A stretch of 64,000 nucleotides of DNA from Isoetes taiwanensis (taxonomy: Eukaryota > Streptophyta > Lycopodiopsida > Isoetales > Isoetaceae), in assembly GCA_021234155.1 (NCBI GenBank), contig JAJEKV010000014.1:7023563-7087562 (forward strand), read 5' to 3'. The translations under genes were made by a program, and so were the position numbers. The notes beneath the pieces were generated by a model that made no database searches, was not told where the DNA came from, and was given only the letters and a program-made list of their open reading frames with translations. Each line of letters opens with the position of its first letter. Position 1 is the stretch's first letter. Of the stretch, positions 2,251-64,000 are shown piece by piece.

Positions 2251-2289
2251 TGCTCAAACAAGTGTTGGGCTTCTGTAATTTGTAGCCTT

Positions 2290-2690: not shown

Positions 2691-2699
2691 CCATACACA

Positions 2700-3690
2700 C
2701 GCAAGGCAACATGTTATAGTAAGCATTCAATAAATTCACATGTAGAAAATCCAAAATCTATTGTTGTTTTTGCTTTCTTGTCACAACCAAAATCACCGCC
2801 TCAAATTTGTAGATACCTCTGTCAACAAAAGATATTCATTAATGTACAAAACTGAAAGATGTCAAGTGCCAAAATATTAACATTTATTGTAATGCAAGTG
2901 GTCTGCATTGAATCTGCCAGGAATTTTTAGCTTGTTTCATTCAAGCTTGTTACTTTAGTAGCAAATAATACCCACCATTTATGTCCCAATTTGGCATATT
3001 GGGCTTAACAACAGTATTAGCTCGACAAACTATGAAGATTATGGTGTTGTGTATACTTTGATTAGGCAACCTTTATTGCTTTTCAACACATGGACATCTC
3101 CTTAGAAGTGCATTTACATTTTGATTCACATCGAATAGATCACAATTACATCATTGTTGTTTGAGCCTATAATTTGAACATGCTTTCTCTTGGCCTGGAT
3201 TGCTGCACACTAATTTACATGGAGGAGAAAAAAAACCTAGTAAACATATTTATTTACCATAAAAATGCTCTTTCTTTTTATATGAATGAGAACAAGGGAG
3301 GCCCTTTCTCCATGAACATCATCAAGTTCTTTAATATATCCACTCTTATGTATATAAACTCCATTATTCCTGTAAATATTCCATCCCAGAAAGTATTCCC
3401 CAAACATTAATAAAGATTGCCAAATAAATGCAGCCACAATCCCATCAAACTTGTTAGTAACATAAGAAAAGGTTCATTGTTAAGCAGATCTAAGCCATAA
3501 ACATCACATTGCAAAATGATACAATGGTGCAACAGTAACATGGCTATTTATGAGTCTTGCTTCTAAGTTGCACTGAAAGCTGGCATTTTGCAAATGGGCA
3601 TCTGTAATATCGTATTCTAGACTATACAAAACTCATTGGTGTTTCAAATATCTCTAATTAGATTCCTCTCAAGCACAAAATTATAAGGTC
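2700..3690. other. unassigned spacer downstream of PRP8
   Basis: No gene is supported here. The stretch is AT-rich and contains the probable 3' untranslated region of the minus-strand PRP8 gene just below 3697. I saw no poly(A) tract in the first 100 bases after the PRP8 stop, which would have marked a fresh retrocopy. Confidence 0.4.
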
Positions 3691-3696
3691 GCCTCT

Positions 3697-6600
3697 TTAG
3701 TTGAAGGCATCCTCGAGATCACCCTCCGCGTTGTTCTGGCCATCCTCTGTATTGCTGAATTCCAAAAAGTGTGTAGGGCGATGCTTTTCATGATAATACT
3801 CCCTTGGATTTGACAACTTCACATTATATTTCATACCAACTTTATGTTTGACACCCATAAAGTTATAATTCCACAGCCCATTGTCAGGCACCATGTAAAA
3901 TCCAAGAAAACGATCACTAAGCAGCATTTGTACTTTCTCATAGTGCGTAGGTAAATAACCACGAGGATTGCTTCCACTATCCTTATTTTGACGGCCCCAT
4001 TCATAGCCAGTAGGTGTAAGCTTGTAAGCTGTCAAGGAACAAGAGCCTGATGTGAAATTACATGTCAAGATTATGCATTTTTCTGCATCCCATTTTTTGT
4101 TGTTCTCCAAGATCTTGGCATGTGATGTCAGGTCCTGAGGAGACAATTGTGGTAGTTCATTGGGTTGTGTGTGCAACCATCCAAGGGGCTCCAAATCATT
4201 CAAGAAGTCATGCTCTGGCAAAGCTGCTGGAAGATTTACCTGTTGATGAGTGCCCCATTGTGGGGGCATTACAATACAACGGATTTCTTTAACTTGTTGA
4301 TTGTCTGGTGTGCTGATACCATATAAGTAACCAGCTATTTGTGTTCTCAGATCAGCTATACAAATAAACTTCTTAAGAATGTTCTTTGGCATAATATAAG
4401 TGTACCCAGCTTCCTTAATATCGTCCGAATTCACATAAATATGATTGACACGAAGGTACAGGTTGGTTGCAGATATTGCACGGACACGCCAGTCTGTTTT
4501 TGATCCAAATGCAGCTTGTTCATATGGACTGGTTGTGGTCACGATTAATTCATCACCATGAACATTTGTTGTTTTTGTAGTGACAGCAGTTAGTTGGCTT
4601 GCTTCTTTGGCTTGTTTCTCAATTTCAGCTATTTGCTGGCGCTGCTGCGAAGGAGGAGTTATCTCAGCTCCCAGAATAATATCACGAATTTCAGACTGAG
4701 TCAATGCTGATGTGTTGACATTATTTTTCTTTGCATAATCAGATAGTATAAGGTCTCTCAATGCAACTTCAACCTTCATCCACTGGTCATCACTTAATGA
4801 AGGCCAAACATGATGGGACTCAGTAACGATGGTCTTGTCTGGCTTAAGAAGCATTTTAGCTTTCTCATTATTCACATGAAGTGCACGAAGAATCAAAATC
4901 AGCCGACAAAAGGCAGTATATGAAGATATGGTCTTTAACCAATCGTCATATATGTTGAATAATACTGCCTGTGGTTCAGTTGCCTTCAAGATGAGATCAC
5001 CAAATTTTTCTATCTTTAGACAAGCTTGGAATGGCAACTGAAGCTCATTACCCTTTATCACAATGTTTGGGAAGTCAAGCAGATGGACTTCCAAAGGATC
5101 AAGCATTCCTTTGCGGGTCACAATAATTTGCTTGGGCTGCTCTTCAACAGGTAAAGAACGCACCAATGCAGCCACTTCTTCAGCAGTCTTCCATTTTGCC
5201 AACTGACCAAGACGCTTTTGCCCGGCCCACACACTAGTGTGAATGGCCTTCAAAAACAGCTGTCCTGTTCGAGGGTTGAAAATAAAAATTGCACCATTTA
5301 TTGGCTTAGTAGTCAGATTTCCTTCAAATGTTTTGTGTATGGTAACACGGTAGACATTGGTATCATCTACAAACCATATAATCTGGTTACTGAAAAGCTC
5401 TCCATAGTTTTGAGACGACAGGTATGGCTCTGTGGGCTCAGATGAGTATAACTGTAAACCTTTCCTCACACGCTCTCGCAACACATAAAGGGCAGGGTTT
5501 GCCTTCATAATCTTGTTCATGGCTTGGCCAAGAAGTGGCTTTGAACCAGGAAACCAGTTCCCAAACGCAGAATGTAGATTGTAGGCCAAGTCAATGCCGA
5601 TCATCACACCTGTAGGTGCTGGATAGATAGACATGTTATCATTGGTGTAATCAAGGAATTTTGCCCTCGTGTATCGTTCAATATCATGAGAGTCGTAATC
5701 ACCCCATCGTAATTGTACATCAACCCAGTACTTGTTGCTTGCCTTCTGGTCAAAGACATCTTTTGATTCTGCAACCAAACTTGGCTTGCTCATATGCCAC
5801 TTATAGGCCGCAAAAAGAAGGATGTCAGCACAGGAACTATTCATTTTATAGCTCTTTCTGGGATGAATAGTTTCTTTCTGCACAGTCTCAATTTCCAGGG
5901 CATCCAACTCCTGATCAAGCACCTGGCACAAATCCATGACAAAACTTTCATGTATTTTCTGCCAAAGATGTGCCCTAAAGATCTGTATGAGAGATATTTT
6001 CAGAGTGGGTATTTTTCCATGCATGAATATTCCTGTTAAGTCAAGCTGAACTTGAAAGCCAACATAGACATTTGCGCGATTAATTGTAGGTGACCACCAA
6101 AGTGTAAAACGTCTATTTGGAATTTGATTCAACCCTGATCTTTGAGCATTTGTCAGCTTTTTATATTTCATAGATTCTTCAAAACCTGATGCTTTCTCCC
6201 AAAACAGACCCTCCCATGTTGGGAAATAAGTGCCTTTAAAGAGAGTATGCTCCAAAATGCCTTCCACTCCACCAAGGGCTTGAATGACATCTGTGCGGTA
6301 ATTATTCAAGTTCCAGAGCTTCCCATCGTGACGCTGGTGCGTCCACCAGAAAGGGTTTTGTTTAAGGACTTGAAACTGTTTAAAATCAGTCCTCACACGC
6401 CACCCTTTATCATATGCCAGTGTGCACCTATCTTTTTGAAAGAGTGTATTAATACGAGGAATTCCTCTATCCCAAGAATCTTCCAAATCTTCCAATGTTA
6501 GCCTTCTGTTTTGTACATGTGCTTCCTGCCGCTTTAGTGCATATTCTGCCCATACTCGTTGTGAATCTATGAATTCACTTTCCCATGGCTGAATATAACG

Positions 6601-9600
6601 GTACAAGTTTGGTATCAGCTGCTCATCCTCATGGCTCATGCCACTTCTGAAGTGAGTAACTCCCACATCAGTTTGTCGGCTATACCGCAAATCGCTCTGA
6701 GGTATTAATGTGTGGCCCATAGAGAGCATTCCAAGGCCTCCAATTTCTTTTGGCGCATAAAAGATAACCGGTGGAAACCTGCTAGGCATTTTTGAGTTCA
6801 ACCCAATCTTTATACGGGTTTGAATCTTGTTTTCACATTTCACCAACAAATCAAGAAGCTCTTGCGTATGGACTGTGGCTTCACGGAAGTAAGTCATCAA
6901 ACCAATCAACGTGGTATTCCACTTGTTTACTATCTTGGTAAATGTTGTTGATCCTGAGGACATAAGAATCTGCCGAACACGATTCTCAAATACTTTCATT
7001 TGCTCATCATCAACACGAAGATAGGCAACAGCAGTGCGTTCCTTTGTCTGCTCATTCTGCAAATTCCATACGCCATCCTTGCTACCAAAAGCTTCTTGTG
7101 ATATTCGTGACTTTGGTAATATCCGTACCTCAAAACCACACATGCTGAATAGCAAGTTTGGATTATCTTTGCTATAAACAGAGACAAAGCTGTCCTCCCA
7201 CTTCAATGTAGTGATGCTTCGGGGTAGTCTATTCTTGATATCCCAAAAAACACTTCTCCCCAAGTTAACATCGTGCTTCAGCAATCTCATCCGAGCATCC
7301 CGAGGCCAGCACTTTTTATTATTATATCCAACAATATTCTCATTATTAGGATCTGGATGTTCCGTAAGGTAGCGCTGGATAAGATCTCGAGCCTCCTCAT
7401 GTGTGAAGCGGCACAGCATGTGCACCTTATCGATATACCTTGAATACAGCCGGATTGGATGCCAAGTCTCAATCTTTACATCATTGAACGTGATGAACTC
7501 ATTTGGCATCTGAGGCGGGCCAGCTATTTCACTTGCTCGTGTAAGTCCCAAAACCAGAAGATCTAATGCAAGACCATAGTACTGAACCACAAAGGAGGCA
7601 AATTGTAAGCCTCTTAGCAGACCATAAAAGTTTGTGTGGCTCATATCCTTGTATGAAAGAACAACATTGTTCTTTGCAGTCACATAATCTGCTATGTTGT
7701 GATCAAGTACGAGGCATGAAGTCTGTTTAGCATTGTAAGATCAATTTTGTCAAAGAACTTTTCGAACTTAGTTTGTAACATGACCACACATTGACCTTCA
7801 TTGGTATCCCATACATCCTGTAAATTATTGATTCCTTGACACCACTTATAAACCAGCAGTGGTGGGGGCTCAGAATCAGCAGGTTTGATCCAGTTCGGGA
7901 ATAGGCAGCGCTTATCTCCTTCATACCATAAATACTGATCAAGATAAGCATCTGTAATCTTTTCTAGTGGTTCAATCTCATAAACAGGTATCAGATGACT
8001 ATAAAGGTCCATAAATTCTATTCCGACCTCTTTAAACGCACGCTGTGTAAGAAGGTGACGTTTTATTCGTGCTAAAGCCTCATGAGGATTGTCATATGCC
8101 TGCTCAATCAGCGCAAGTTCTTCTCTCTGCTGCTGATTTAACCGTACAGCAGCACTATATGACTCTTTCAGCCTTTCCAAAGCCAGGATCAGGAGCTTGG
8201 TATCGTGCTTGTATGAGAGTGGTGGGAATGGTATGGGTGAAAACTTTCTAGACTCCAGCCAGTGAACCATGGTCGTATATATAGCCACAGCCTCCTCAGG
8301 AGTAATATATGGCCCATCTTTCAAATAATTATGTTGTCGTTCCTGTTCAGCCTTTAGCCAGAGGCGGGTTAGCCTGCCAAGATTCTTCCTACACACAGTT
8401 TTATCAACTGTAGCACCTCGACGAATACGTTCCCTATTATAATGTGCCACATTTGTCCACCAATCTGCTTTTGGTTTCACATAACGTAAGATCATGTTCT
8501 CAATCGGGACAGCCAAACCAGGCACCTTCCATGGTATATTAGCTTTCCAACAACGCCATGCTTCACTTAGATGCTGCAGAATTGTTCTTGCCTTGTTTTG
8601 CTTTATACCCTCAGGCATAGCATCCAGCACATCATGCATGACTGCTGCTCTTAGCTCCAAGTCAAAATGGCTTTCAACCCGTTGCTTTGTCACCGTTTTC
8701 GCTACACCCTTTGAATGACGACCCTCGAATTGCCTTGCAAGAAGATTGCCAAGCCACCTTTCTAGAAGGGGCACAACACCACGGAGGAAGAACAACCAAA
8801 CCCGCCACATCGGTGCCCAAAAACCACACCCAGGACCTTTGCCGACAGGTCCAGTATTAAATCTATAGTAAATCAAGTGCTTCAAATCTTTGCACATTCT
8901 TATTTGACGCATAAGCCTGTACTTGTAGCGGTACATTCCTGTTAACTGGCCAACATGAGAAAATGTGTACTGTAGTCCATCAGCGAGCTGATAGGCATCA
9001 ACATTGCCTAATCGAAACTGAATGTTTGCATCAACAACAAGCTTTGTCAGTCGAAGAATTTCTCTACAAAGATGAAAAGCATTTCCAAAGCGAGACTTCT
9101 TACGTTCTTTTGTGGTCAATGTTTTAACTGGTTTCAGATTAAAATTGTAGTCGAGATGCAAATAGTTCAAATTCTTCCGATGTATCAAGAGATTCAGCAT
9201 GTTGTAACCCTGTTTGCAGACTTGCAGACCAGCTTCAGCCCAATCTAACTGGGTAGTCTGGAAGAACTTTGTCGCACGTAAAGAACGGAATAAGTGCTTC
9301 TTCCCTTGCCCTTTTGGTGGCCTATGGTGTAGTTCATTCAACACATAGCACTTCAGAAGCTTCTGATAACTCACACGAACCTTTGCAGGATAAGTGGGCA
9401 GACAATGCTCTTTATACCAATCAGAAACAAGTGGTACATCTTCTGCTCGCCTTGTTCTTCCAGAACGCATGTTGAAGGGTCGTGGAGCAAACAGCAATGC
9501 AATTCCTGAAGCTGTGGTATCAGTATACAGAGATGTTGATTCCAGAAGTGGCTCGACACCTTTTGGTAAAGTAAAGTCTTCGCCATCATCTTCTTCCTCG

Positions 9601-10662
9601 TCAACTAGTTTCTTGTCTCTCCGATCCGTCTTATAACCTGGGATTGGATGAAGCAAAGGATCATAATAGAAAGCTGGAAGTTCAGGATCTTCCGTCTTTA
9701 TATGCATCACCATGGGAGTATGGTAAACTCCTAATCTCACTTTCCGGGGCCTATTATTGTATAGATGTGGAAACGCAATTCTGTATTCTGTACGGAGAGG
9801 GGACCTTATTATCAGCTTGCTTATATCATTAAACTCATTCCAGTCTTCATCTCCCTTCTCCATGTCACGATACAAAGGTTCAAACTTTGGACCTCCTGGA
9901 ATGCACATGTTCAGAGCCTTGGCAGTGAAAAACGATTCCATGCAAAACAGATAAAAATAATTTCTATCAGTTAAGTCCGATAGCAATTGGCCTGCAAGCC
10001 GATGCAGAGCTGCCATTATTGGCAAGGATAGGTGCCATCTTCTATAGCTAGGCCCATTGATCAACTTCGTTTTCACAAGAGGCTTATGATCGTAAAACCA
10101 CATGTACACAGCAGAATCCTCAACCTCGGTGAAGGTCCAATTGTATAGCCTCCAATGGATCAACATCAAGAAGATTGTCTGCATAGTCAAGAGGTGGCTC
10201 TTCATCATCAAATGGTGGAAAACGCATCCGTTTAAAATGCCTCCTATCTCTCTTCTCACGCCTCATCATAATCCACATTGTACCCCACTGTGCTAAATAG
10301 ATAGGTTCAACAACCCAAGGAATTTCGTCAACAAACGTGATTGCTCCAGTGATATGATACAGAATTCTCACATCCCGAACCTGTTCCCATGGCATGGGCA
10401 TATTTTCCAATAGCTTGTACACAGCATGGGGTACAAATTTGAGTGCTCCAAGATAAACACGCTTGTCATGACGGTATCTTTTAGAAGAGATATCTCCATG
10501 ATCTCTTATTATCTTGCGGACATGTTCAGGCGGCATATCCTCCTTTTGCGTCTCTACAAAACCATGTTTACGCTTCTCACCATATCTCTTTGTGTTGAGC
10601 TGCTGCCATTTCCTTGCTTTCTCAAGCCTGGCTTCAGCTTCAGAAATCGGAGCAGGCATCAT
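3697..10662 (-). CDS. PRP8: PRP8, U5 snRNP spliceosome core protein, intronless with two frameshifts
   Basis: PRP8 is the central scaffold of the spliceosome; it holds U5/U6 snRNA and the splice sites in the nucleus. The match is close to plant PRP8 throughout. It begins with the short N-terminus [14 protein letters not shown] and the block [18 protein letters not shown]. Next come the long N-terminal region with the PROCN part ([19 protein letters not shown]), the RT-like region and linker, the endonuclease-like region, the RNase H-like domain ([20 protein letters not shown]) and the C-terminal Jab1/MPN domain ([16 protein letters not shown]), ending in an acidic tail. Total length is about 2,320 residues against 2,335-2,360 usually; the proline-rich N-terminus of other plants is missing. 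No introns occur over 7 kb. Frame is lost twice: one extra base near 10132 (after IQLDL) and one missing base near 7715 (after TMLNRL). It may be a recent retrocopy, or a working gene with two sequencing errors. Confidence 0.93.
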
Positions 10663-11925
10663 CTTTGTAACAATGACCTAATTCAAGAACCTCGGATAAA
10701 CCCTTCGAGAAAAAAAAAAACAAACTACACGGGATTTTTACCCTGCAACTGTTGCCTTTTAACTTCTAAAAATGCCGGAAAGAAAAAATGCTTTTGATCA
10801 CCTGTTGGTCGCTCCTTGATCGCTGCCTTCCCTTCCCTCTTTAGTATTAAATAGTATAATAAAGGCCTTGCCCTATTTTAACCATTCCCTTTTTCAAAGG
10901 TCTCCTCTCCACTAACAATACTTTTAATCTAATTAAATCCCCTTATCGGACTCTTGTATGGAAAGGGAGAGTGCTTTTTTTTTGCTTATCATTACTAGAA
11001 CAGTACTGATAACTAATTATCAGCACTTAATTAGCAGCCCGATAAGGCGGTTATCGGGTCGTCGCTTCTGATGTCACCTTTGATAACCGCCTCGGCCCTA
11101 ACGGGCCTCGGCAGTTATCAAACACGTACAGACTCGGCCCTAACGGGCCTCGTCTGACGTGTCCAAAATGCGTGGCCTCGGATGTACAGCCTCGGTCACG
11201 CATTTTTGGTTATCAGCCTTAGCTAGACCGATAACCTTACCTTATAGATTTTCGATAGGCCTGTGTTTTTCGAACCAGGCCTCTGTTCGGGGCGACGCAG
11301 ATTGATTCGATGGGCTTCTTCTTTTCTAAGTTATTCTAATCTTGGTAATTTTTCTCCTTTTGCTTGGAAATTGGAAATTGGTGGAAGCAGTCGTAGGAAC
11401 AACAGAAAGGAAAAGATATGCGGGAAACAGTAGGAAATCCAAGAGCAGACGAATGGAATATGCAGAGCAATAACAAGAAATAAGTGGGATGAATGAATAA
11501 ATATTAAAGAGGCAATGGAAAAAATCTAATGAGAAAAAGGAGTTAAAGGAACAAAACTCGAGATGAAACAAGACAAGAAGAATCGAAACATTTATAAAAA
11601 ATAGATTGAAACAAGACAAGAAGAATCGGAACATTTAAAAAAATAGAGAAGCTATAGGACCAACAATGGGATAATGAGTCATAACGTCACAAATGAATAT
11701 CACAACAAGGAAGTGGATATGAGAATACAAATGCCAGTAACACCAACCACGCCAATGGAGCAAATACAATGGAGCAAAGTGAAAAGTGATCAATGAGGTT
11801 AGGGAAGCAACCAAAAAAAGAACCAACATGGAGTAGAGCAAAGGAACCACCTGAAATAGAGAGAGATAAAATGACACCACTTGAAGACTATCATAATCGA
11901 ATCATATTATCTAGAAATATAAAGT
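10584..11925. repeat. segmental duplication, copy 1: PRP8 5' end plus upstream region
   Basis: The first ~80 bases of PRP8 coding sequence and about 1.2 kb upstream recur at 28437-29575 in the same orientation. Shared landmarks are the AATGACCTAATTCAAGAACC block just upstream of the start codon, the GTTCGGGGCGACGCAGATTG block and the terminal block ending near TCATATTATCTAG. This copy alone contains the hairpin insertion at 10901-11285. The other copy alone contains a LINE tail. Since upstream DNA is shared, the duplication was at DNA level and not through mRNA. Confidence 0.9.
10901..11285. repeat. 385-bp insertion built of consecutive hairpins
   Basis: Compared with the paralogous sequence near 28755, this copy has about 385 extra bases between CTTTTTCAAAGG and TTCGGGGCGACG. 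Inside are six successive inverted repeats: 11006-11023 (CTGATAA/TTATCAG), 11038-11058 (CCCGATAA/TTATCGGG), 11079-11122 (TTTGATAAC/GTTATCAAA), 11122-11162 (ACACGT-CAGAC/GTCTG-ACGTGT), 11163-11209 (CCAAAATGCGTG/CACGCATTTTTGG) and 11208-11236 (GGTTATC/GATAACC). The third and fourth share the loop core CTCGGCCCTAACGGGCCTCG. It may be a small foldback or MITE-like element or a structured non-coding RNA. I saw no clear target duplication. Confidence 0.7.
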
Positions 11926-39406: not shown

Positions 39407-41665
39407 TTAGAAAGAAAAGTTACCGTTGTTTTGGTCGTGTTTCTCCTTAAGCCTCAGTATTGCTGTTTGTCTCCTTGCTTTGGCTGCCTCATCCGTATAT
39501 TGTCGCATCCCAAATAACCAACAAAGTCTCATTCTACCAGGAGCATATAATTGATCCCTAAGTCTGAGCGTGTTCATTTTCCATAATTGATCCGCTATTT
39601 TTTTCGAATCTCTCTCTTCCTTCTTCTCTTTTGCTTTCTTGGCAGCAATCTCTTTCAAAGCCTTTCGCTTTTCCTGTTCAAGCCTTTTTTCTGCCATTCT
39701 CTGTTGCTTTTGTATTTCCAATTCTTCTTTCCGAGCTTTCTCTTCCAAGATGAACCTACACCATTCATCTGACGAAACATGAAGCACTCCACGCAAATCT
39801 GGAATTGCCTTTCTTCCTCTGTTAGTAGGCTGAGATGCAGTATTATTATATCTATCATTCTCATCTGTTTGGGTTCTTGTGAAAGATCCAAATATAGGTG
39901 TTCTTCTAGCTGTTGGAATAACCCTAGATGTTCATGCAGTATTGGACATCAAAGAATTAAGATCAATGTTTGTAAAGGGCTGCCTATACGAAGTTTCCCA
40001 ACACCGAAACCCTCTTTGTAACGGAGCCAAGTGGTCTTCTATGTCATGACTTCATGGGTTCACTATTTTATTCATATGCTCAAGCTCACCAAACTGATCC
40101 ATGGCTTGACTTGGTAAGCTTTCTTGATCAGAGGAATCCTCAAGCTGGTCAAATGGATCCATAGCTTGTGGTAGACTTTCTTGATCAGACACATCTCCAA
40201 GATGACCATATTGATCTACAACAAATTCATCTACAAGATGGCCTACAGGGTGGTTCATTACGGGCTGGTTTAGTGGAGTGTTACCAGTGTGACCTTCATC
40301 CAATGCATGCGAGACAACTCCATTGGGTAAAACTGCTTTCTTGTTCAAAGGCCATATGCCTGTTGCCCTAAAACCAGCTCTGATATTAGTATCAGTCAGA
40401 GAATCCCTTATTGCATACCATATTAAAGTAGCCAAATCTTCCTTTGACGGCTCCACCCAACGCCTCTCAAGCATGTACTTTGCTCTATATTTCTGGAATG
40501 CAGTCTTAAAGGGAGCAAAGCATGCAACATCAAGTGGTTGTAGTTTATGTGAAGTGTGTGGTGGCAAAACATAAAGATGAATCCCCATCTCTTTGGCAAT
40601 AAGAATCACATCATTGTCAACATGGCTGCCATGGCCGTCCAAAATGATGAGATGTGGATTGGAAGGGTCAACACCACCAGGTACATTTTTTTGAAGTGAA
40701 TTAGCCAACATTTAAAGAGTTCACTTGTCATCCAAGCTCGGTATTGAACAGCTTGCCTTGCTCCTCTTTCACAACCATTGATATAACATCCCCTTAGTCG
40801 CTTTCCTTTGAAAATATAGTAGCTCGAAAGTCTATATCCTTCTGCATTACAACAGGCCAGAACTGTAACCCATTCTCTATTTTGCATCACCACTTCATGC
40901 ACGTTTCTTGCACCCCTTCTAGCAATAATTTTCATCCCTCTCACTTTTCCAGCTTGCACACCTGTTTCATCTGCATTCCAAATCTTGGAGGGGGGAAACT
41001 GAAACTCATCGTACACTCTCTAAACTATTATAAAATGCATGTAAGTTTTGCTCAGATAAAGCCATAGCACGTGCTGTATCTAGCGTCTCAGCAGAACGTA
41101 AGGAGATCTCCGGGTGCCTGGCATGAAAGAGCTGCCACCATTTCCTTCCAAGAATGCCATTCTTGAAGGGTGTGGCTCTATCAACACATATTTCAACAAC
41201 CTTTTCCTTTAGCATGCCTATTGTCACTCCTCTACCTTCATCTGCATTTCTCAAACACCAATTTACAATCTCTAATTCCTCTTCATCACTAAGATACCTG
41301 GAATGTTTTCCCTGCTTGCGTTGTGACCTCCCATATAGATGGTTTCTTATAGTTGATTCAGGAATACCGTATTCTCGTCCAGCTGCTCTAATGGACATAG
41401 TATTATCTTCAACATCATTTATAGCTGCATCTAGATCTTTGACTGTCCATGATCCTCTTCTTGCCTTTAACTTTGCCTTGGATGTGCTTGCTGAAATGTC
41501 CCTTCTCCTCCTTTTGCTTCTTGCACCTTTAATTTGCTTAGCAGATGCAATTGAAATTGGTGTTGATGCTGAATCAGTAACAACATTCATGGTATTGCGT
41601 TTTGAACGTAATAGAATGAGAAGAGGAATTTCAGAATTACAACCTAATGAAGACAGTATAGTCAT
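39407..41665 (-). pseudogene. pogo/Tigger-like DDE transposase
   Basis: A cut-and-paste transposase of the Tc1/mariner superfamily, pogo branch. The N-terminal part (41665-41006) has a basic stretch, a psq-type helix-turn-helix (AAGREYGIPESTIRNHL) and a CENP-B-like helix-turn-helix (NGILGRKWWQLFHARHPE). The catalytic core shows the first Asp in WNADETGVQAG near 40970, the second in ILDGHGSH near 40640 and the third in LQPLDVACFAPFK near 40540. The C-terminus (about 39940-39407) is a charged coiled coil (EEKARKEELEIQKQQR). There are two single-base losses: near 41020 (SLESV to YDEFQ) and near 40690, where an A7 run needs eight A (HFKK to NVPGG). A stop near 40052 separates core from tail, perhaps across an intron. 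I could not locate terminal inverted repeats. Confidence 0.88.
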
Positions 41666-41699
41666 TATATGATAGAATGAAAGGATAAGATTAGATCAA

Positions 41700-53392: not shown

Positions 53393-55638
53393 CCCGGCAA
53401 ATCCTAGCCTTAGACAAAAGCCTAGCTAGAATTAACGTCTGAATAAGTCAATCCTTATTCAGCATGATCAACCCATACAAAGCCTAGGCAATCTTTGATG
53501 GTACTCTACTTCCTTAGTTTCTTACACAAATTCTTTAACCAAACCATATAATATCTTTCATATAATATACAAGCCACAAGACATTCTTGTAAACTCCAAA
53601 TGTATATTTAATTACCAAATAAGTAGTGGTATTAATTCATTAAAGCCATTGTAGAAGGAAAGCCAATTTGTACAACCAGTAGTCATAAGAATTATAAAAT
53701 ATATACTCTTGGCCTGAAAACTCCAGATATGTATGTCTTATGTGGACCCAACATGTATTTGTAATCCAGTATTTTTAATTAGATCTTAGCATTCTATGAC
53801 TTTTATGCTTATGCATAATGTTAATAATACATACCTGTAGCATTAATAATCTGAACTTTAAGATGTTAAGTGAAGAATTTTCTCATTGTATTTAGCATGA
53901 AAAACGAACATCTATGTTTCTGTAGAGCAGGGGCAGCATTTAGATTGGCCAATGAAGTTAGAATGCAGACCTATAATGATTATTCATACTATCTTATGTG
54001 GAACTAGCCTTTATTCAGAATATCATAAACAATGTAAAATTAATCCTGCAAGAGTACATACTCATTGACATACCATAAAACCCTGAAATATCAGCCCATA
54101 TCTATTCATTGATATGATGGAAAGAGTCAAAACAGAGCTGTCATTAGATGTATCCTCTGTATGAAGTTTGTTATATGACTGTAATAATGGATGAGCTTAC
54201 GCAAAATTTAGTGCAGAACACGTGGAAACAAAATATGCCCGGTTTTCATGAAAGCGGCGGACATTCTCAAGATTAAAACTATTTAGGCAGCTTCATATTA
54301 AGTATATTGTAGAAAAAACAGAAGCTACTTATAGAAATGATAGTAAAGCAAGATGTATGCTCCCTCTTTTGTGTCACAACATATTATCTGTTCATCCCTT
54401 TGGCAAAATCCAAAGAACTCCGTGTTGAATTCCTTCTACCAGCCAAACACCAACTAAGCAATAGAGCGACAAGGGAAGGAGAGTAATTCGTACCTGCAGC
54501 CAACCATCAAAACATTAGCAGGAAACTGGTAATGATTGAAGGGCCAAAAGGTACATGTGATTACTCTCAGTTTATCACATTTCACCCCTTGTAGCCCATT
54601 ACCAATCATTAGTCCTAGCTTAAAATAGAAGGAGAAGTACATACGAAATATAGCTAAGGGTTTTAACCCCCAGATCTAGTGTAGATAAAAAATATCAAAT
54701 GCAAAATACAGACCAAATAAGTGTATGTTTATGGGCAAAGCCTTTTTCGAACACAGCAGATCACTCGATTATATGAAGAAACAGGTGTTCCAGGCCATTT
54801 ATTCTGAGGTGAACCATATACAAAAACTTAAGCAATTATTATGAAATATACCTGATCGTTGTCTTGTTCAGATACAAAGCCCTCATTTTCTTGTGTTTCT
54901 GGAACGGATATAATATTAGCCCCCTGTGTCCGAACCATCTTTGGATCTTATTATGAATGGTATCTCCAGAGGATTTTTTCTTGCTAATAGCTTCAACCGA
55001 TTCATCCTTACTACGTTTTTGTCCATGTGCTTCATTATCCTTAGCCATCAGGTTACTGCGAAAGCTGCAATCTAGACTATCTTTGCACCACTGGATCTCC
55101 TTTTCAATGCATTCTATATTAAGGCGCAAAGATCGGAGGAGGAGATAAAGTTATCAGGGTCTGAATCTGAATCCATTTTGTAGCTACTTAGGGTTATACG
55201 AAAGCAAATGTCAAGGTCTAAGAAATCAGTCAGCTCTTCATAAATTACATAGACTCGAGGCAATCTTATTCAGCAGAGAATCTATGAATGGTAAAAACTA
55301 ATGCATGTGGCATCAGAAAAACCCCACTAGGTACACATACCTAAGATCATTGGGAATCTGGGACGCCTCTTAATGGTATTAATTTGGTCATCCGGTCCTT
55401 GGATGCAAAATCCGGCATGAACTATTATGCTTCACGAATGCCTTTAGGGTAGAAAATAGAAACTGGTATAGTGTAACTTAACCCAAAGATATCGTTAAAG
55501 TAACCTTATTTCACATATTTTTTAAGTCCAACAACCATAATATGTAATTCCTTACCATTAGAGGTTCTATTTAATTATGCTTTAGGGGATATGTTCCTAG
55601 AGGTATGTAATGGTGACCCATATGACCAGTCAACATGT

Positions 55639-55644
<6 letters not shown>
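53393..55644 (-). repeat. LTR-like direct repeat B (5' copy in element orientation)
   Basis: Matches 46970-49218 at an offset of about 6,423-6,426 bases. It should hold the promoter and first exon for the internal genes. Its right end runs into an A-run of about 25 bases, then a sequence starting ACCCCTCAAATC. Confidence 0.95.
54852..55176 (-). pseudogene. first coding exon in repeat B, frameshifted
   Basis: Same exon as 48430-48753. Compared with that copy, it has a one-base loss near 55126 (GGCGCAAAGATC for GGCACTCAAGATC) and a net two-base gain near 54925. The reading frame is thus disturbed between them, although the total change restores phase before the donor at 54852. About 65 residues in the middle would differ from the intact version. 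Confidence 0.6.
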
Positions 55645-55669
<25 letters not shown>

Positions 55670-55698: not shown

Positions 55699-55730
55699 CT
55701 TGGTATTTCCAGTCGACTGGAAATACCAAG
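55699..55730. repeat. perfect 32-bp palindrome
   Basis: Two 16-base arms, CTTGGTATTTCCAGTC and GACTGGAAATACCAAG, with no spacer and a GTCGAC centre. A second inverted repeat, CCTAGAAAATTG/CAATTTTCCTAGG, lies at 55746-55777. Together they stand between the Penelope-like element and the next gene, and could be a transposon end, a cruciform or a dyad binding site. Confidence 0.9.
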
Positions 55731-55745
55731 TCTGCCTTCAGCAGC

Positions 55746-55777
55746 CCTAGAAAATTGACAGGAACAATTTTCCTAGG
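55746..55777. repeat. inverted repeat, 12-bp arms
   Basis: CCTAGAAAATTG and CAATTTTCCTAGG flank ACAGGAA, with one extra C in the right arm. It is 15 bases after the perfect palindrome. Confidence 0.8.
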
Positions 55778-56207
55778 CCAGGATAAGGACATAGCATTAT
55801 TGGGTAAAAGCACGTTAGGTTGATAAAATATTGGGTCATTTTAATACATATACATTTTTAGAAATGTATAATAATTACCGTGAATTTTGGTTTTTTTTTC
55901 GACTGAAAATAGGCAATGGAAAATTCCCTCCAATTCTTTCTTCCCCGTTCTTGTTTCTTTGTCCTTTGATCTCTCTGCTTTTACCCTGCGATCCAGCACC
56001 TCGATCCCTTGCAAGCGACTAAAGCACGCTCTTCCGAAGTAGCTTGGTCATTCTCAACAAATCAAAGGTACAATCGTCTTCTTCCCTAGTTTTCTTCTTT
56101 CTGCTTTTAATTTATTACTTTAGGTTTTTGTTTACATGTGCAAGCTCAGATTGTTGCACCTTTAGGACAATTAAAAGATATTTGTTGTTGCATTGCAGGT
56201 ATAGACA

Positions 56208-59200
56208 ATGGCAAAGACACCAAAGAAGAGTGATGCCCCTGCATCAGTCCGAAAATCTCCCAGGGCTTCCAAAGCAGGGACACATTTGAAGTCTGGAAGT
56301 CCTGGCTGTAGCAAGGAGAACTGAAATGAGGACACAGTATTTTCTGCAAGGGATCTGGCGAATATGAAATTCAAGGAAAAATTTGCAGAATACAACTCTT
56401 TAATGACAGAAGTTTGGGGATCTAAGGAACCTACCAGGTACGGGTACAAGGATGAGCTGGTGAAGTTGGAAGACCAGGCAGAATTTTTCAAGTGGTACGA
56501 GTTTGCATTCGGTAGGAAAGATGTACAGAATCACTATGTTCCACTGTATTTTGCTCGAGCATTTGCCTTACACTTAAAAGGTGAATTAGTTGATTGGGAT
56601 GATGTGAAAAAAACAGCCACAGCTAAAAGCAAGGTCAAAGAATCCGAGGTTTTGACTGAAGTTGTAACAGTTAAGTCGAGCAATGCCAAGGGCCACAAGT
56701 CTTATGATACTTTCTACAAAAAAGAAGATCTGGATAGTTTGAATGTATTTCTTGAGAGCAGATCCTCTTTGAAGGAAAGTATATGTAAGGAGATGCAGAA
56801 TTTACAGGAGACGAGACTGCAGCTATATGAGACTTTGAAGCATAGGGAAGGGGAAAGGGCAATATATTCTAAGCTAGTCCATGAGGCCGAGACTAATTAC
56901 TTGAATCTGATGTCAGAGCTGCAGGCATTTCAACAGCAGATGGATGAAAGTGACGGTAGTGCTATGAAGTTTCAGCACATAAAATGGAAGGTGGAGGATG
57001 CAATTGTGCAGAAGAGCAAGCGGGGGAGGGATCTAGCTGAGCTTAGCAAGGAAGTGGAAGCAAAAGCATCTGAGTTGAGGCAGCTAGATTCTGAACTCAA
57101 TTTAAGGTCTTCAAAAAAGAAAGCAATTGAGGAGGGGGACACAAAGATTTTGGAGTTGAGGGAGTTTTTAGATCACTCCTCGGTCCTTAGCTTGCAGCCT
57201 CCTCCTCTTTCTTTGGTTTCAGTTGCAGAGCATCCAATTGCTGATTTTCAGTCCTGCACAAATTGCGAGCAGTGTTTTGGTTCCTCCCCAGTGGTATTGG
57301 CATCTTGCAGACATCCTTACTGCCTATTATGTATCTCCTATCTTGCTAGCACAAGGAACAACTGCGCGGTACCAGGCTGCACATGGGATGTGAATCTACC
57401 TCGTGCATTGGGGCTGATTGGAAAAGGTAAGCATGCATAATCGATTTCTTTCATGTCTAGTTCAGGTGTAAGATTGGTAGATGGATATTAGTTAGAAGTT
57501 GTGCATTGGTTGTGCATTAATTGTTCTGTAGTATATTAATTACATTTGGGTTTTAAAATGTAGGTTGAAGTGAAGATTTGTAGGGTTGGATCGTTTTGCT
57601 TTTCTAGGCTGGTGTAAACATCATGTTAGTACATGCATATTATTAATGTGCATGATGTACAGTGTTGCCAGATATTATTGAGGAGTTACTTTTATGTACT
57701 AACAAAAGAGGATAGGTAGGTAACTGCCTGTGTGTACATTTGTATAACATGTGGTCTTCTACTGGGGGACATTTTGTACTCTATGATACATTTTAATGCA
57801 ATTACAATTTTCCAGTAAGCTTTTCTACACTTGGCTCCAAATACATATATCTAATATATGTAATACAGCTACATGGAATGCATTTATGAATTCTTTTTTC
57901 TAGGAAGCTTTCTACATTTGGATGTGGGTACATAAAACTGTACATAGTTCTGCAATACAGATACATGGAGTACATTCGGAATTGGATTGTACATTGCTTT
58001 TCTGGATTGTACATTTCTTTCAGTCATCTATTTACTATTGGTAATGCTTTCATTCTTGCAGGTGACATGGGTAGTATAAAGAAGCCAGAGAAAGGTATGT
58101 GATATGTGGTTATGGTCTCTTCATATGTATTTCAATTTCACCTCGTATGCAGATGCAGGCAAGAACAGAGTAGATCCTTCTGTAAAGACACTTGATTTTT
58201 CAAGTTGTGTAGATGATTATTATGGAGGGAAGCATGATAAGTCAACCCCGTCCACATTTAGGTCACCTCTAAACACATTGAACACATTTGTAGCAGAGCA
58301 TGAGAGAGGAGGAAAAGGAACATCAAGTAAGTAATTAGTTTTAAATGAATTTGCTGGATTTTATAAGGAAGCAAATTGAGCTCATTTTTTTAATAACAGA
58401 TACAGTTGTCACAAGCAAAGCTACAATTGTAGCTTCATATGCACAACAAATTGAGCTCCTGAAGCAAAGGGCTGAATGTGGCAACACAGGTGTGTGTCCA
58501 TATTAGTTTAATTTCTACATTTTCTTGATGTTTATCTACTGTTGACAATGAGTTATCTTGTAGTACTGGAACCAGCGAGCGAGGAGAACAATGAAGCCAT
58601 CTCTGACACTCTAAAGAAAAAAGATATTATTGTAGAGGTCTTCGACACTCCAAAGAAAACAATTGTAGACAAGGTCCAGAAGGTACCAAGCCAATGCCAC
58701 ATCATCAGACCGAACTTGAAATGTTGTTTTCAAATGGTAAGTCAAAAATTACTTATTGCATTTATTTATTGCATGTTCATACATTTTATTATTCGCAGAA
58801 ACAGAGGAAACTAGTGGATCTATGGCCTTAGTTGGAACTACAATCGAAAAGATTGAAGAATCATGTAAGTCAGGAACATATACAACTGGTACTGAAGGAA
58901 TTGTAGTGGAGAATGTGGCTACAGATATGAAGCAGGTGGTTGTGGTGAAGCAAGAGAAGGAGGAATCTGAGGATAGAACAGATACAGATAGTGGTGTGAA
59001 CGAGAAAGAGTCAAGAAAAAGAAAAGATACAAAGGTGTCACGGCCAGCTAAGAGAACTAGAAGCCAGACATCAGTTGAGCAACTGTAAGTGTAATTGGAT
59101 TAGTAAATATGTGTTTTATGCTAGTTACCATTGATGCTTGGTTTGCAGTGACATGGATAACCTTCAGACAATGGTTCCATTCTATCCATTCCAAGCTGAA

Positions 59201-60103
59201 CCTCTGATTAAGGTCACGAAATATTGTGTGGAGACATTGTTTAAAGATAGGCACATGTCTAACAGACATTTAGACATATTTGGAAGGTATGTGAGCAGCA
59301 CATTGACATCCAAATGGCGAGATGTTTTTCTTCCCTTCAGAAAACTTTTTGACTTATCGGGCAGCATTTAAAAGATTAGCCCTGGATGCTAATAGTATGG
59401 GACAGTCAGGCAGGAGTGCAGTTGAGAAAGGGCTACAAGGCATTGTTGTTAGTAAATGCCAGTATATTATGGTTCCAGTTCAAGTTGAGGACTCCGCCCA
59501 TCATGTTTTGGTGATTTTTGTTTTAGAGTCTGCAAAAAATTGCAGTACCACCTCAATGGCTTCTCCTGCAATTATTGTGTTGAACTCCATGACTGGTATA
59601 ACAGTGGACATCAAACTCCTAAATATGTGAGCATTTTCTTTCAGTATATGTACTCGTGCTTGCTTAAATCTTAGTTGCATGTTCTCATTTGTGTGTGCAG
59701 GCTTCATAAGGATGTCATCACATATCTAACCAACTCTAGCTCACGTAGAGTTGAATTATATGTGAAGAATGCAGTGAAGAAGGAAACTATTCCAGAGGTT
59801 CCACAACAACCAGATAATGTAAGCTGCGGTCTTTATGTGATGGTCTTTATGCAAGCTTTTGTGGATGCCCAAGTGAATTCTAAAAGCATGGTGAGTTGTT
59901 ATTATATTTCACATAAATCCTTTGGGATGTTTTATTGTAGCGGATCTTAATTCTTGTGTTTGTTGCAGTTTTCATCAACATGGTTCGACAAGGATTTTGC
60001 ACTTGGCAGAAGAAATGTATTAATAAAAGCCATGATTGAATATGGTTTGAGAAGAAGAGATGAGACAAAACAAGTTGTCACTGGGCAGAAGAGTGGTAGT
60101 TAA
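56208..60103 (+). CDS. RING finger plus Ulp1-like protease gene, ten exons, damaged
   Basis: Exons by splice consensus: a 5' UTR exon ending 56067, then 56199-57426, 58062-58094, 58153-58326, 58400-58489, 58564-58736, 58799-59084, 59149-59626, 59701-59890 and 59969-60103. The start at 56208 gives a basic tail (MAKTPKKSDAPASVRKSPR). TGA at 56322 interrupts it; a second Met lies at 56364. A coiled coil (about residues 170-310) precedes a C3HC4 RING (about 350-392; CEQC, CRHPYC, CAVPGC), typical of ubiquitin ligases. A basic stretch (KESRKRKDTK) follows. The C48/Ulp1 protease fold has His in HHVLVIFVLE (59499-59504), Cys in QQPDNVSCGLYVM (59825) and the oxyanion Gln, but Asn (LNSMTG, 59583) where Asp is usual. 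Phase needs one more base in exon 6 (near 58680) and one fewer in exon 8 (near 59336). It would be about 925 residues. Ulp1 genes often ride in DNA transposons. Confidence 0.72.
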
Positions 60104-60296
60104 ACTCATTCCAACTTATGGAATTTAAAGCTAATTGACTATTGTACTTTGAAATTTATTTGAATAAGAAATTGTTTGCAACGCTTTAATTTCTATCAAG
60201 GGTTACAAACTAGAATTAGTTTAGACTTTCTGTCTTATCCTTAGGCTTGGTCCGGTTAGATGTATGGCTAACCTAACTGCCCTGGATTACTTACAG

Positions 60297-61598
60297 GGCT
60301 TATTATATTTGATCTCCAAGGCATTTTGGGTTACTATTGTAAATCAGCACCCAGTGACTATAATGGCACTCAAGTGCCAATCCAATTACCTGATGGAGTC
60401 TTCTTTTGTCGTCCATTGTCGAAATCATTGTTGTACTGGTGTTCCAACCATTGGGATTTGGTTGTTTGGTCAGATCTTCCCTTGGATGTTCTGACAGCCA
60501 TTGTAGACAAGTTGTATGAGCAAGGGACCAAGATTTAAATTCATTTATGGTGGCAATAGATGTTGGACCCTCTTCTTAGAGGTCAATGATGGGACAGACA
60601 TATTTCTTTTCCCTTTGGATATTCCACTCCTCAAGTATCCAGAATACGGAAATAGATGTGTTATGATTACTGACCTTCCTTTCAAATGTATCTTCAATGA
60701 GGGTTGCTCTTGCTGCATACCAGTATGGCATCCCAGGCTAACTGGTGAAGACAAAGATTTGTGTTGGCTATTTGACTGATTTGTAGGCTTGAAGAATGCA
60801 AATGACTTTACCACTTATGTCCAAGAGCATCAATTTGATACTTCTCGTGCATACAATGACACAGTAGTGAAATGCATAAAATCTCAATATGATGAAGACA
60901 TTGATAGTTTATGGAGCTTTTGCAATAGAGGTTGCTTGCTAATTAAGAAGCCTAGCATCACAGTGAAGAGATTCACAATAATAGAAGAATCTAGTGAAGA
61001 TGATGAAGGTGGGGTACAAGATGAGTGTCTTTGGTACATCGATAGCAAACAAGTCGAGGACACGGGCACATCTTCGTGTATGTATCTAACTTAGGTAATA
61101 CAATTATGCTTAGATGTTGTATGTTGTAGAGCTTTTGCAATACAGGCTGTATATACATAACTTAGGTAATACAGTTAAGCTTTCACATGATATACTAATA
61201 ATTTTGTATGCATTGTAGATGTAAGGAATGATCTACAAAACAAATGTCAAATTCTTCAACCAGCTGAAGTAGATCTTCAACCAACTGATATAGAAGAAAC
61301 AAATCTAAGTTCCCAATATGTCTTTGGGGGGGACTAATCCAAGGTCGAATACCATGCTTCCTGAGCTTTGGGAAATGGTTGAGAGAATCAGTGATTCAGA
61401 TACTCGAAGCAATTTGCTAAATCTACTTGCAGTCCAAGGTTTACTACATAATCCTTGGGTTGGGGGAGACCATCCTTTGCAGAACTAGTTGACCAGCCAA
61501 TAGGGTGGACCGGCCTTCCAATAGCCAAAGAATGCCCAACAGCAAGTGCTACTGCTGTAGCACATGTAAATCCTGAAAACCGTTGGAAGAAAAGCTAG
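60297..61598 (+). pseudogene. FCP1/NIF-like HAD phosphatase-like gene, 5' end not found
   Basis: After an acceptor at 60297 the frame reads LIIFDLQGILGYYCKS, which resembles HAD motif I (FDLDGTL) with the second Asp replaced by Gln. Next come VFFCRPLSKSLLYWCSNHWD and LVVWSDLPLDVLTAIVDKL, the motif-II-type block of FCP1/NIF phosphatases, and a Cys-rich FNEGCSCCIPVW. Frame breaks: one extra base near 60533, TGA at 60777, and a G7 run near 61326. An intron 61078-61218 fits in phase 1. The last exon ends ENPRWKKS-like (NPENRWKKS) with TAG at 61596. No initiating exon was found in the 190 bases after the upstream gene. FCP1-type enzymes dephosphorylate proteins such as the RNA polymerase II tail; with the Gln substitution, activity is doubtful. 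Confidence 0.5.
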
Positions 61599-61847
61599 TA
61601 CTGAGATATTATGTTCCAAATGACATAGTGATTAGGCCTGCTTCTTAAGTTATTAAGTGTGTACACTGTACTATTTGCTTCAGAAATATAATTATGTGTA
61701 CCTTTTGCACTTGTCTACAATTTGAACTTCAACATGTTCCATGCTATATTTTACAAACCAGGTAGTTCACACAGTACAAACCACTGCAAATTCAATTCAA
61801 TTCAAAAAGTAACACAATACAAAGCACTGCAAATTCAAAGCTTTCAC

Positions 61848-63683
61848 CTAATCCAAGGCATCCACCATTACGGGAAGACTTCCTAGCAATATCTCATGCA
61901 CATCATCAGACAATGCAAAAGCTGCACTAGTACCTTTAACCCTGTGTTTTATCTTCTTCATGGGAAATTTAGCTCCAATAACAGACTCTACTGGTACCAA
62001 TACTTCTCTATCATCCAACAGCTTATATTTGTTATGGCAACTTGGCAATTTCTGATAATAGTAAGCTGATATGACTGTGTCACCTGCATGATGCTCATTC
62101 TTGTAATCATCAATGACCGTTTGATCCAATATATGCTTTTCTCTAGTGCAAGCAAGAACATAGTATGGCACATCTTCCTCATTACCAGGAAGAGCAAAAG
62201 AAGCAAAATTATCACCAAACTGTATCACATCATGTAACTCCTCTACCTCATTTGCAAACATTGCGGTTTCGATTCCAATTACAGACCTTCAAATGTGCAC
62301 ATGGGACTAGCTTCTTCAATGTCCACTTTCCACGGTGTTGAATAGACTCACATGCACGCCATTCAAAGTTTATGCGAGCCTTTGCAAAAAACAAGATAGT
62401 GGTCTAACCATCAAGAAGGTTGGGTCCTCCTGGGACTTATGGAAGATACACAATGCCCGACTTTGGACACCGGGAAGGGGTTGCACATCAAATGGCTTTG
62501 ACCATCAATCTCAGCCTCCTTCACTTCCCAATACACTCTACTTAACTTGAGATTTCTTGTTTCTCAAAACAACACGGGCATCATGAGCACCCTTTATTTC
62601 AATCCCATGCTCTCTTCTTTGCTTATCGGCCAAGAGTTGCTTGGCCTTGGCAGCCTCTCCATCATGTTCCCCTTCCCATGCCCCGATCCAAGAAATTCCA
62701 TTGTACACGAATGCCATGTCGACAATGGTACCGTGATATGAAGTAGAATGATCTTTTGGATTTGAACTGAAAGCAAAGACAACCATCGACCACCGCGAGA
62801 TGATACCGCATGTGAGATCCTCCATTCTCTTTCAACCACTTTGAAGATGAAGTTGAAATGCATGTTTGTAAAAAATGTGTGTCATGACTTCTATCATCGA
62901 AACATATAAGTGAACAGTCTTACGCAACTTACCATTTACCTTGAAGAGAGTGATGTGTACCAAAATAGTGATCCGGTCTCAGCATTCCAATGTTCGGGAC
63001 CGCACTTCTTTGAAGGGCAATAATGTGTAATTTTCTGCAAAGTCTACTACTGATATCACAGAATCATCTCTTAGACTCTGGATGCTTCTTCTAAATTCCT
63101 TGCTCTGCCAATGAGCTGCAAAGTTGTGATGCACAAACTTTTTCATGTGATCAAACATGGCAGATAGCATGAAAGGAGCATCTGTTTGCTTCTCCACCAA
63201 TCTTAGTCTTCTAGAAGTGCCCTTCCTTGACTTCTCATCCATATAACAGTAAGCCTGCCATTTAACATCATCTTCATTATTCTGTTCAGTCTCTTTTGGA
63301 CATAAGGGAATCTTTTGCTTACCACATTTTTCACAATCCCCCCTTATGCACTTCAGATTGTGCCACTCTTCCCTTTCCTCTTTTTGGCAAACCATTTCTC
63401 TCCAAAGAGTGTTAACATTACAAAATGTAAGCTTTTATGCCTGACAAACCCCATCATGTGTACCAACAGCACATACATCACAATTGCAACTGCAATTTAT
63501 GTGAAACTTCAGCCTCATAGAGTTGAAAGCTTTTCTGAAATTCTCTGCTTGTTCATGCTTGACACAACAGCAAGTGTTTCTCTCCTTCAATTTCCTTATA
63601 CAACTTGGTTTCAGGTATTCGAACATTCTAATACCAACATCTGCATCTGGATTCTCCTCCACAAATTGCTCATACAACTCAGC
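61848..63683 (-). pseudogene. DDE transposase-like gene, decayed
   Basis: Convergent to the two genes before it. Exon 63683-62940 starts after an acceptor and holds a Cys-rich segment (CSCNCDVC), TAA at 63435, a Cys pair motif (GDCEKCGKQ) and SVVDFAENYTLLPF (Asp near 63044). TGA at 62979 stands where ECW-DRITILVHIT would be read. Exon 62838 onward reads AVVDGCLCFQFKSKRSFYFI (Asp near 62787), then VQWNFLDRG, and after frameshifts GEHDGEAAKAKQLL (Glu near 62657). The last exon (62261-61848) reads VPYYVLACTREKHILD to KFPMKKIKHRVKG. The order DFAENY, DGC-QFKS, GEHDGE and the HRVKG tail is what I know from an unnamed transposase family in animal genomes; the D, D and E would be the catalytic triad. 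At least four breaks make it inactive. Confidence 0.6.
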
Positions 63684-63689
63684 CTGCAC

Positions 63690-64000
63690 ATTGCAAAAGA
63701 AAATAGGTAAGTTGGAGAAGACTGTGCATTGAATACCTTACATATCCAGTACATAAGTAAGAAATACTATGTATACCAGTACATATCAGTTGTACATGTA
63801 AAAAGATTTGATTGAATCTATACATATTCAGTACATATGTACAGTAGATTATGTATAGTATCAATTTATAGCACATTTAATCCTACATCCTTACACTATA
63901 TACATATATATCACATAATATACATGAAATACTTCCAAGAGCAAGTAGATGACCCCATAAACCTCATTTACATGTATAATACAGTAAGCAAAACAGATTG
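63690..64000. other. AT-rich region with TGTACA-type repeats
   Basis: Upstream intron or flank of the minus-strand transposase-like gene. It contains many CAGTACAT and GTACAT words, like the introns near 57600-58020 of the RING-Ulp1 gene and near 61090-61190. The shared vocabulary suggests a common origin for these non-coding parts. Confidence 0.4.

Follow-up and report, generated by a model that had tools for sequence, protein, structure and literature searches.

A terminal-inverted-repeat transposon of Isoetes taiwanensis with a probable RING-Ulp1-HAD accessory gene and a tentative parallel to VANC-like anti-silencing

The window analysed here is a 64,000-nucleotide stretch of the lycophyte Isoetes taiwanensis (C952:7023563-7087562), and the genome searched with it comprises 1,658,258,908 bases in 1110 contigs. 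It is practically certain that window positions 55802-64000 are most of one cut-and-paste DNA transposon with terminal inverted repeats (TIRs). This element carries a plus-strand gene for a coiled coil, a RING finger, an Ulp1 protease and probably an HAD domain, and a transposase gene on the minus strand. Its features are listed below; positions beyond 64000 are window-equivalent, and L030 is a copy from another lineage (lineage B).

55798..55801: left 4-bp target duplication, TATT; right copy outside the window, at 71133-71136
55802..55822, plus strand: left terminal inverted repeat, 20/21 bases matching other copies; right repeat at 71112-71132
55802..64000: transposon, truncated by the window end; it extends to 71132 and holds a nested 5.9-kb insert (~64188-70067)
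56068-56198, plus strand: putative intron of the 5' untranslated region, from splice signals read by eye
56208..57426, plus strand: first coding exon, coiled coil and RING, ATG at 56208
57255..57380, plus strand: RING finger with eight ligands, spaced as in L030
57427..58061, plus strand: first coding intron, 9 GTACAT sites
58062..59148, plus strand: middle exons and introns of the RING-Ulp1 gene, exon borders by eye
59149..60103, plus strand: Ulp1 exons (59149-59626, 59701-59890, 59969 onward), stop at 60101-60103
Within them, plus strand: Ulp1 residues His (codon 59499), Asn, usually Asp (59583), Gln (59807) and Cys (59825)
60096..60296, plus strand: putative intron linking Ulp1 to HAD in frame, phase 1
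60297..61080, plus strand: FCP1/NIF/UBLCP1-like HAD domain, frame broken in the window copy; motif I DLQG, D codon 60311-60313
61081..61219, plus strand: putative intron 3' of HAD, containing GTAATACA repeats
61848..63683, minus strand: transposase in pieces, frames broken, N-terminal part beyond the window
63435-63683, minus strand: transposase piece
62979-63434, minus strand: transposase piece with DFAENY, D codon 63042-63044
62538-62831, minus strand: transposase region with DGC..QFKS and HDGE, frames shifted
61848-62288, minus strand: transposase C-terminus
63684..64000, minus strand: start of a transposase intron, 5 GTACAT sites

The ends of the element were fixed from a comparison of six copies (30 kb each). 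The 21-bp terminal repeats, in inverted orientation, read GGGTAAAAGCACGTTAGGGTG. Without the nested insert the full element measures ~9.5 kb, and five uninterrupted copies have 9.4-9.7 kb. Perfect 4-bp target duplications, of ten different sequences, flank 10/10 copies with both ends in sequence; this count leaves out three lineage A copies that each lack one end (C1066, C1044, C974b). Lineage A, i.e., that of the window, has TATT (window copy), AATT, TAGA, CAAT, TGAT, TTTG, TACC and CTCT; outside it are CCCT (lineage B, L030) and AGTG (lineage C, L031). Two copies of 4.1 kb are internal deletions in which both ends are kept. The first-pass annotation had proposed that the genes might lie inside a large DNA transposon and had named in advance, as support, several copies with a common set of genes, delimited by terminal inverted repeats and flanking target duplications; such copies are what was found. 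The limits it gave (55699..63700) do not hold, since the element starts at 55802 and ends at 71132, past the window end.

When the genome was searched with window 55699-63700, 35 matches were listed, and most of the long ones begin at query positions 94-104. Among these matches, 8 other places span at least 7 kb of the 8-kb query at 93-94%. An 18-bp end pattern (up to 2 mismatches) occurs at 4,147 genome sites, against 95 for the reversed control, thus we infer that roughly two thousand elements may have these ends in common.

A perfect 32-base palindrome is localized immediately outside the element, at 55699-55730. It has no second match in the window (up to 3 mismatches) and none among the genome matches listed. 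It was rejected as the element boundary, most long copies beginning at 55799-55802. The nested insert of the window copy (C952 ~7087749-7093629, i.e., 64188-70067) has the ends CACAAGGCCCCCAAAA and is flanked by a 3-bp duplication, GGT, read by eye. It looks like a non-coding CACTA-type element.

Two transcription units and their recurrence across lineages

The window copy of the plus-strand gene has an in-frame TGA at 56322-56324, and its reading frame is open from 56325. The RING pattern, C-x2-C-x13-C-x-H-x2-C-x2-C-x10-C-x4-C (57255-57380), has identical spacing in the window and L030; the structure model of a 93-aa RING piece is too poor for use (predicted local distance difference test score, 46). 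Peptidase_C48 of Pfam matches window 59702-59889 (E=1.1e-6, 29.2 bits, cut-off 20.7), and the Ulp1 pieces of L030 and L031 have no C48 match in Pfam. The observation of a coiled coil-RING-Ulp1 protein, made from the sequence alone, is confirmed, with RING and Ulp1 as probable assignments. The Ulp1 His is invariant in the lineage A copies, L030 and L031. The usual Asp is replaced by Asn (LNS) in 9/9 lineage A copies, L030 and L031, and the triad reads His-Asn-Cys.

The HAD region has no ATG of its own and begins at a splice acceptor AG (60295-60296). A donor GT (60096-60097) sits five bases before the Ulp1 stop and joins HAD in frame, in phase 1. This donor is kept in 9/9 lineage A copies and in L030, and in lineage C, too, HAD is preceded by an acceptor of this phase. 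For these reasons HAD is probably the C-terminus of the coiled coil-RING-Ulp1 protein, by predicted splicing, perhaps as a splice form. Of the three multi-exon genes annotated at first, the gene parts stand and a separate HAD gene probably does not; three independent genes were dropped in favour of two transcription units. It is very likely that the element has two convergent units, of which one encodes a conserved accessory protein.

The window HAD matches Pfam NIF under the cut-off (E=5.6e-4, 20.1 bits, cut-off 21.8), and the lineage C HAD has no Pfam match. Motif I is DLQG in 9/9 lineage A copies and EIQG in L030, i.e., without the DxD, whereas 2/2 lineage C copies have FDIDGG, with DxD, and keep the downstream DD. 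HAD thus looks catalytic in lineage C and degenerate in A and B. The best solved-structure match of a 4-row HAD profile is UBLCP1 (3shq_A, E=1.3e-4; the other three, E at least 0.096). UBLCP1 acts on the proteasome. This match, and the ubiquitin/SUMO-type nature of RING and Ulp1, would fit a gene that shields or stabilises the element proteins through the ubiquitin-proteasome system in general, with no sequence-specific anti-silencing. Such a role leaves the lineage-specific words described below unexplained, and is judged improbable.

The transposase gene, convergent with the RING-Ulp1 gene, encodes DFAENY, DGCAAQFKS and HGKGxHDGE. The transposase-like protein first recognised by DFAENY, DGC..QFKS and HDGE is indeed found on the minus strand, in broken frames. 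The three acidic motifs are conserved across lineages A, B and C; in L031 the acidic residues are spaced D-83-D-40-D or D-42-E. The 551-aa L031 transposase has no Pfam match at E<=1, integrase models included, and searches of NCBIfam, PHROGs and solved structures gave nothing convincing. No relatives were found in viral and genome contig collections searched with few peptide patterns, and a text search of the open-access literature for DFAENY, DFAENYS and DFSENYS found no report. The transposase may resemble the animal DFAENYS proteins.

The lineage A copies compared are nine, namely the window, C46, C1032, C974 (twice), C1029, C1066, C1030 and C1044. Lineage B (L030, C1097) has 71% identity in the transposase, the same gene order and 2 mismatches to A per end repeat. 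Lineage C (L031, C1077) has 59% identity in the transposase and 5-6 mismatches in the ends; the coiled-coil gene of L031 is at 32% identity to that of L030, and Ulp1 is present.

The places compared genome-wide are the best 111-150 of 1,913-6,679 first-look candidates, so that missed partners are expected. A RING place lies within 20 kb of 39/73 transposase places (0.18 expected), always convergent (39/39); this comparison took 73 of the 150 listed transposase places and left out 77, mostly more distant. A listed HAD lies within 20 kb of 39/105 RING places (0.33 expected), on the same strand and downstream in 39/39, and within 12 kb of 32/150 transposase places, convergent in 32/32. By transposase class, from the closest to the most distant, the HAD pairing is 13/49, 14/27 and 5/74. 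Places without a listed partner are not readable as independent genes, since only the best candidates were scored. Two outcomes that the first-pass annotation had taken as speaking against a common element, independent occurrence of the three genes elsewhere and a single-copy, syntenic RING-Ulp1 gene lacking the transposase, were not seen.

A further HAD class has 30-34% identity to the lineage C HAD (e.g., C908:5891489 beside C908:5893913). At least once it adjoins a 57% transposase, thus the family has more lineages than A, B and C.

Selection and the origin of the frame breaks

Between the window and L030, the ratio of non-synonymous to synonymous differences (pN/pS) is 0.36 (0.30-0.44) for the RING exon, 0.28 and 0.36 for the Ulp1 pieces, 0.47, 0.65 and 0.41 for the HAD pieces, and 0.23 and 0.30 for the transposase pieces. 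A third transposase piece (0.72) was not used, being partly in a wrong reading frame owing to frame breaks. As these ratios are low at pS 0.51-0.82, purifying selection acted on both transcription units between A and B. Because the layout also recurs in the diverged lineages B and C, the plus-strand gene looks like a working part of the element and not like chance cargo.

The gene might instead be a captured passenger without a role, the words being splicing signals or drifted tandem repeats. Plant MULEs and CACTA elements often hold Ulp1 via transduplication, according to the cited passages (PMC2528002, PMC13317346), and HAD is degenerate in motif I in A and B and missing from L031. This possibility is already weakened by the low pN/pS at near-saturated synonymous sites, and the same layout is found across diverged lineages; it appears quite improbable. 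The description of Ulp1 and HAD as transposon cargo holds in that the element carries them, and fails in that they are probably not passive.

Light decay of all the genes had also been noted. Decay is probably not the sole cause of the frame breaks, part of them being sequencing error. Differences from the majority among the nine lineage A copies reach 13.0% at CG, 12.0% at CHG, 3.3% at CHH and 2.6% at A/T, and transversions are raised as well. Of 785 indels of at most 4 bases, 536 are near a CG, versus 34.8% of positions. According to the cited passage, the I. taiwanensis assembly is based on nanopore R9.4.1 reads, and Guppy 3.1, racon and pilon were used for it (PMC8566536). From this clustering and this type of assembly, many of the frame breaks would be basecalling errors linked to methylation, with true deamination mixed in. 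Decay as pseudogenisation only is weakened by the same two facts. Elsewhere some frames are intact: among the places listed, the RING frame is unbroken in five of lineage B (51-56% identity), and in lineage A the HAD frame reaches up to 288 aa. It must be kept in mind that frame breaks in repeats assembled from nanopore reads can be artefacts. The clustering of differences at CG and CHG, together with a divergence higher in exons than in introns, is perhaps a methylation footprint in a nanopore assembly.

Short words and a possible anti-silencing role

Three introns, one per gene region (1090 bases in total), contain 14 GTACAT and 3 TAATACAG, versus 41 and 2, respectively, in window positions 1-55700. 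The sharing of these two words among introns, already pointed out from the sequence, is thus borne out. The non-coding parts of the element were then compared with 200 dinucleotide shuffles. In lineage A, GTACAT occurs 15 times in non-coding DNA (shuffle mean 3.0, max 9) and twice in coding DNA; a second copy, C46, has 26 GTACAT against 6.0 expected. Lineage B has 18 AGTACAT (mean 0.9, max 4) and 26 GTACAT (mean 2.8, max 7) in non-coding DNA, with 1 and 6 in coding DNA. In lineage C the word is ATGTAA, with 31 non-coding occurrences (mean 6.2, max 14) and 5 coding, and GTACAT is not above the shuffles (8; mean 3.2, max 10). The non-coding DNA of lineage A contains 3 TAATACAG (mean 0.3, max 2), and B and C have none. 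The maxima in 33 control bins of 3 kb are 6 for GTACAT, 2 for AGTACAT and 7 for ATGTAA. The word sets are thus lineage-specific and enriched in the non-coding DNA of the element.

In lineage B a transposase intron holds a tandem array of AGTACAT with a 10-bp period (L030 ~7660-7750). A 19-bp pattern of this array has 232 genome sites versus 2. Among the rows listed, 42/51 array loci have a listed HAD place no more than 15 kb away, against 0.12 expected; the other 9 have none at this distance.

This distribution is reminiscent of VANC proteins. In the passages cited, VANC21 of Arabidopsis binds YAGTATTAY in VANDAL21, at sites in its introns, between its genes and in its terminal non-coding DNA, and the targets form tandem repeats; VANC6 has different motifs; and VANC expression leads to a loss of methylation (PMC5735166). 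KIU elements are described as Ulp1-bearing VANC relatives with motifs of their own (PMC13317346).

By analogy, the following scheme may be proposed: (i) the element would move by its own minus-strand DDD/E transposase; (ii) the plus-strand gene would give a coiled coil-RING-Ulp1 protein, with HAD probably spliced on at the C-terminus; (iii) this protein would be a trans-acting accessory factor of VANC type; (iv) the protein, or a partner, would bind the short words in the introns and intergenic DNA of the element; (v) its ubiquitin- and SUMO-directed activities would remove or block silencing factors at these words, so that the element stays expressed. Leaving the anti-silencing step aside, an element with a conserved accessory protein is highly probable. 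The VANC-like anti-silencing itself is tentative, with a probability of about 0.35. More tentative again is the full proposal, in which a non-MULE lycophyte transposon would have independently evolved VANC-like anti-silencing, with a RING-Ulp1-HAD protein co-evolving with the words and with HAD passing from active phosphatase to pseudo-enzyme between lineages.

An alternative ranks close behind, and is itself unlikely: the RING-Ulp1-HAD protein would act directly with the transposase or with repair factors and remove SUMO or ubiquitin while the element transposes, and the words would be transposase binding sites. It is favoured by the convergent, conserved pairing with the transposase, by words that vary between transposase lineages, and by Ulp1/OTU in Ginger1 transposases and Ulp1 in Mutators, for which the cited passage proposes a repair-related role (PMC2836005). 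On the other side, the words are largely in introns and intergenic DNA deep inside the element and not at its ends, and the 4.1-kb deleted copies, without most of the interior, nevertheless have target duplications.

Several results weigh against the scheme proposed above. The CG/CHG pattern, if it marks methylation, would mean that the copies were silenced in the sampled tissue. Within lineage A, where divergence by codon position was taken at non-methylatable sites, selection is not clear: the three positions differ by 1.98/2.47/2.81% in RING and 3.20/3.69/3.06% in Ulp1, and among the exons tested only one middle exon has a third-position excess (1.15/1.63/3.06%). At these sites the coding exons (RING 2.0-2.8%, Ulp1 3.1-3.7%, transposase 5.3-7.4%) are more divergent than non-coding parts, for which the values are 1.04% (first intron) and 1.43% (5' end); this also runs counter to a simple account of the decay. 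The words of B and C were picked post hoc, from one copy each, and those of B were then checked genome-wide. As for the protein, Pfam RING models match only below the cut-off, and the RING frame of L031 is broken. The Ulp1 Cys codon reads in 6/9 lineage A copies, and L030 has Arg at this position. The splice acceptor AG 5' of HAD reads in 6/9 lineage A copies and in L030; in L030 the HAD junction contains one base too many, which breaks the frame, and a 1-base shift is needed. Finally, HAD was not detectable in L031, the sole full lineage C copy read. The loss of HAD from lineage C that this suggested was rejected, as other lineage C places (C919, C191, C1045) carry HAD, convergent, at 2.4-2.5 kb from the transposase.

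Related transposons, neighbourhood and meaning

That Ulp1 is carried by transposons is already known, in the passages cited here, for MULEs, CACTA and Ginger1; in the same way, what follows compares the element with known systems as those passages describe them. Like VANDAL with VANC, and KIU, all of Arabidopsis, the element is a large plant DNA transposon with a transposase, an accessory gene and lineage-specific short motifs, non-coding and partly in tandem; KIU (Kaonashi MULEs) also carry Ulp1 (PMC13317346). VANDAL and KIU are non-TIR MULEs, whereas the Isoetes element has 21-bp inverted repeats and 4-bp duplications, MULE duplications being of 7-12 bp (PMC10741241). In addition, its DFAENY transposase is without Pfam match, where MULEs have a mudrA-type transposase, it has RING and HAD, and its anti-silencing is a supposition. 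It thus does not fall within the MULE, VANDAL or KIU groups.

Ginger1 has an Ulp1 or OTU protease alongside the transposase and 4-bp duplications (PMC2836005, PMC10045372), but its protease forms a fusion with a Gypsy-type integrase. In the Isoetes element Ulp1 is in a separate, convergent gene on the strand opposite to the transposase, and no Pfam integrase model is matched. Grapevine CACTA elements with ULP domains are a further case of Ulp1-like sequence in a plant TIR transposon (PMC2528002) and differ in ends and duplication length. The element shares with Sola the 4-bp duplications, inverted repeats and size in the published range, and an acidic triad (PMC10741241, PMC3627910, PMC9033089). 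Sola is present in moss and uncommon in flowering plants (PMC10741241), and the cited passages on Sola do not mention a RING-Ulp1-HAD gene. By duplication length, repeats and size the element resembles Sola, and the term «Sola-like» is used for it as a putative placement. The open-access literature searched, as far as its passages were available, yielded no account of a transposon with a RING-Ulp1-HAD gene, and none of a Sola transposon in Isoetes.

In the rest of the window, 53712-55669 is a stretch that ends in a poly-A run; the C1029 element has an 81% copy of it in its flank. From the poly-A run and that copy, it is probably a retroelement 3' end. A pogo/jerky-type DDE_1 transposase (DDE_1, E=3e-11) lies on the minus strand at 40055-41695, and a Prp8 splicing factor gene, whose exons are long and uninterrupted, on the same strand at 3700-10677.

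Ulp1 is present in several unrelated plant transposons, where its role is given as unknown in the cited passage (PMC13317346). In the Isoetes element Ulp1 is accompanied by RING and HAD, with purifying selection on them, and the motif sets next to them differ from lineage to lineage. If the protein binds these words, the link between Ulp1 and sequence-specific anti-silencing would become a testable convergent rule, in a plant lineage far from Arabidopsis.

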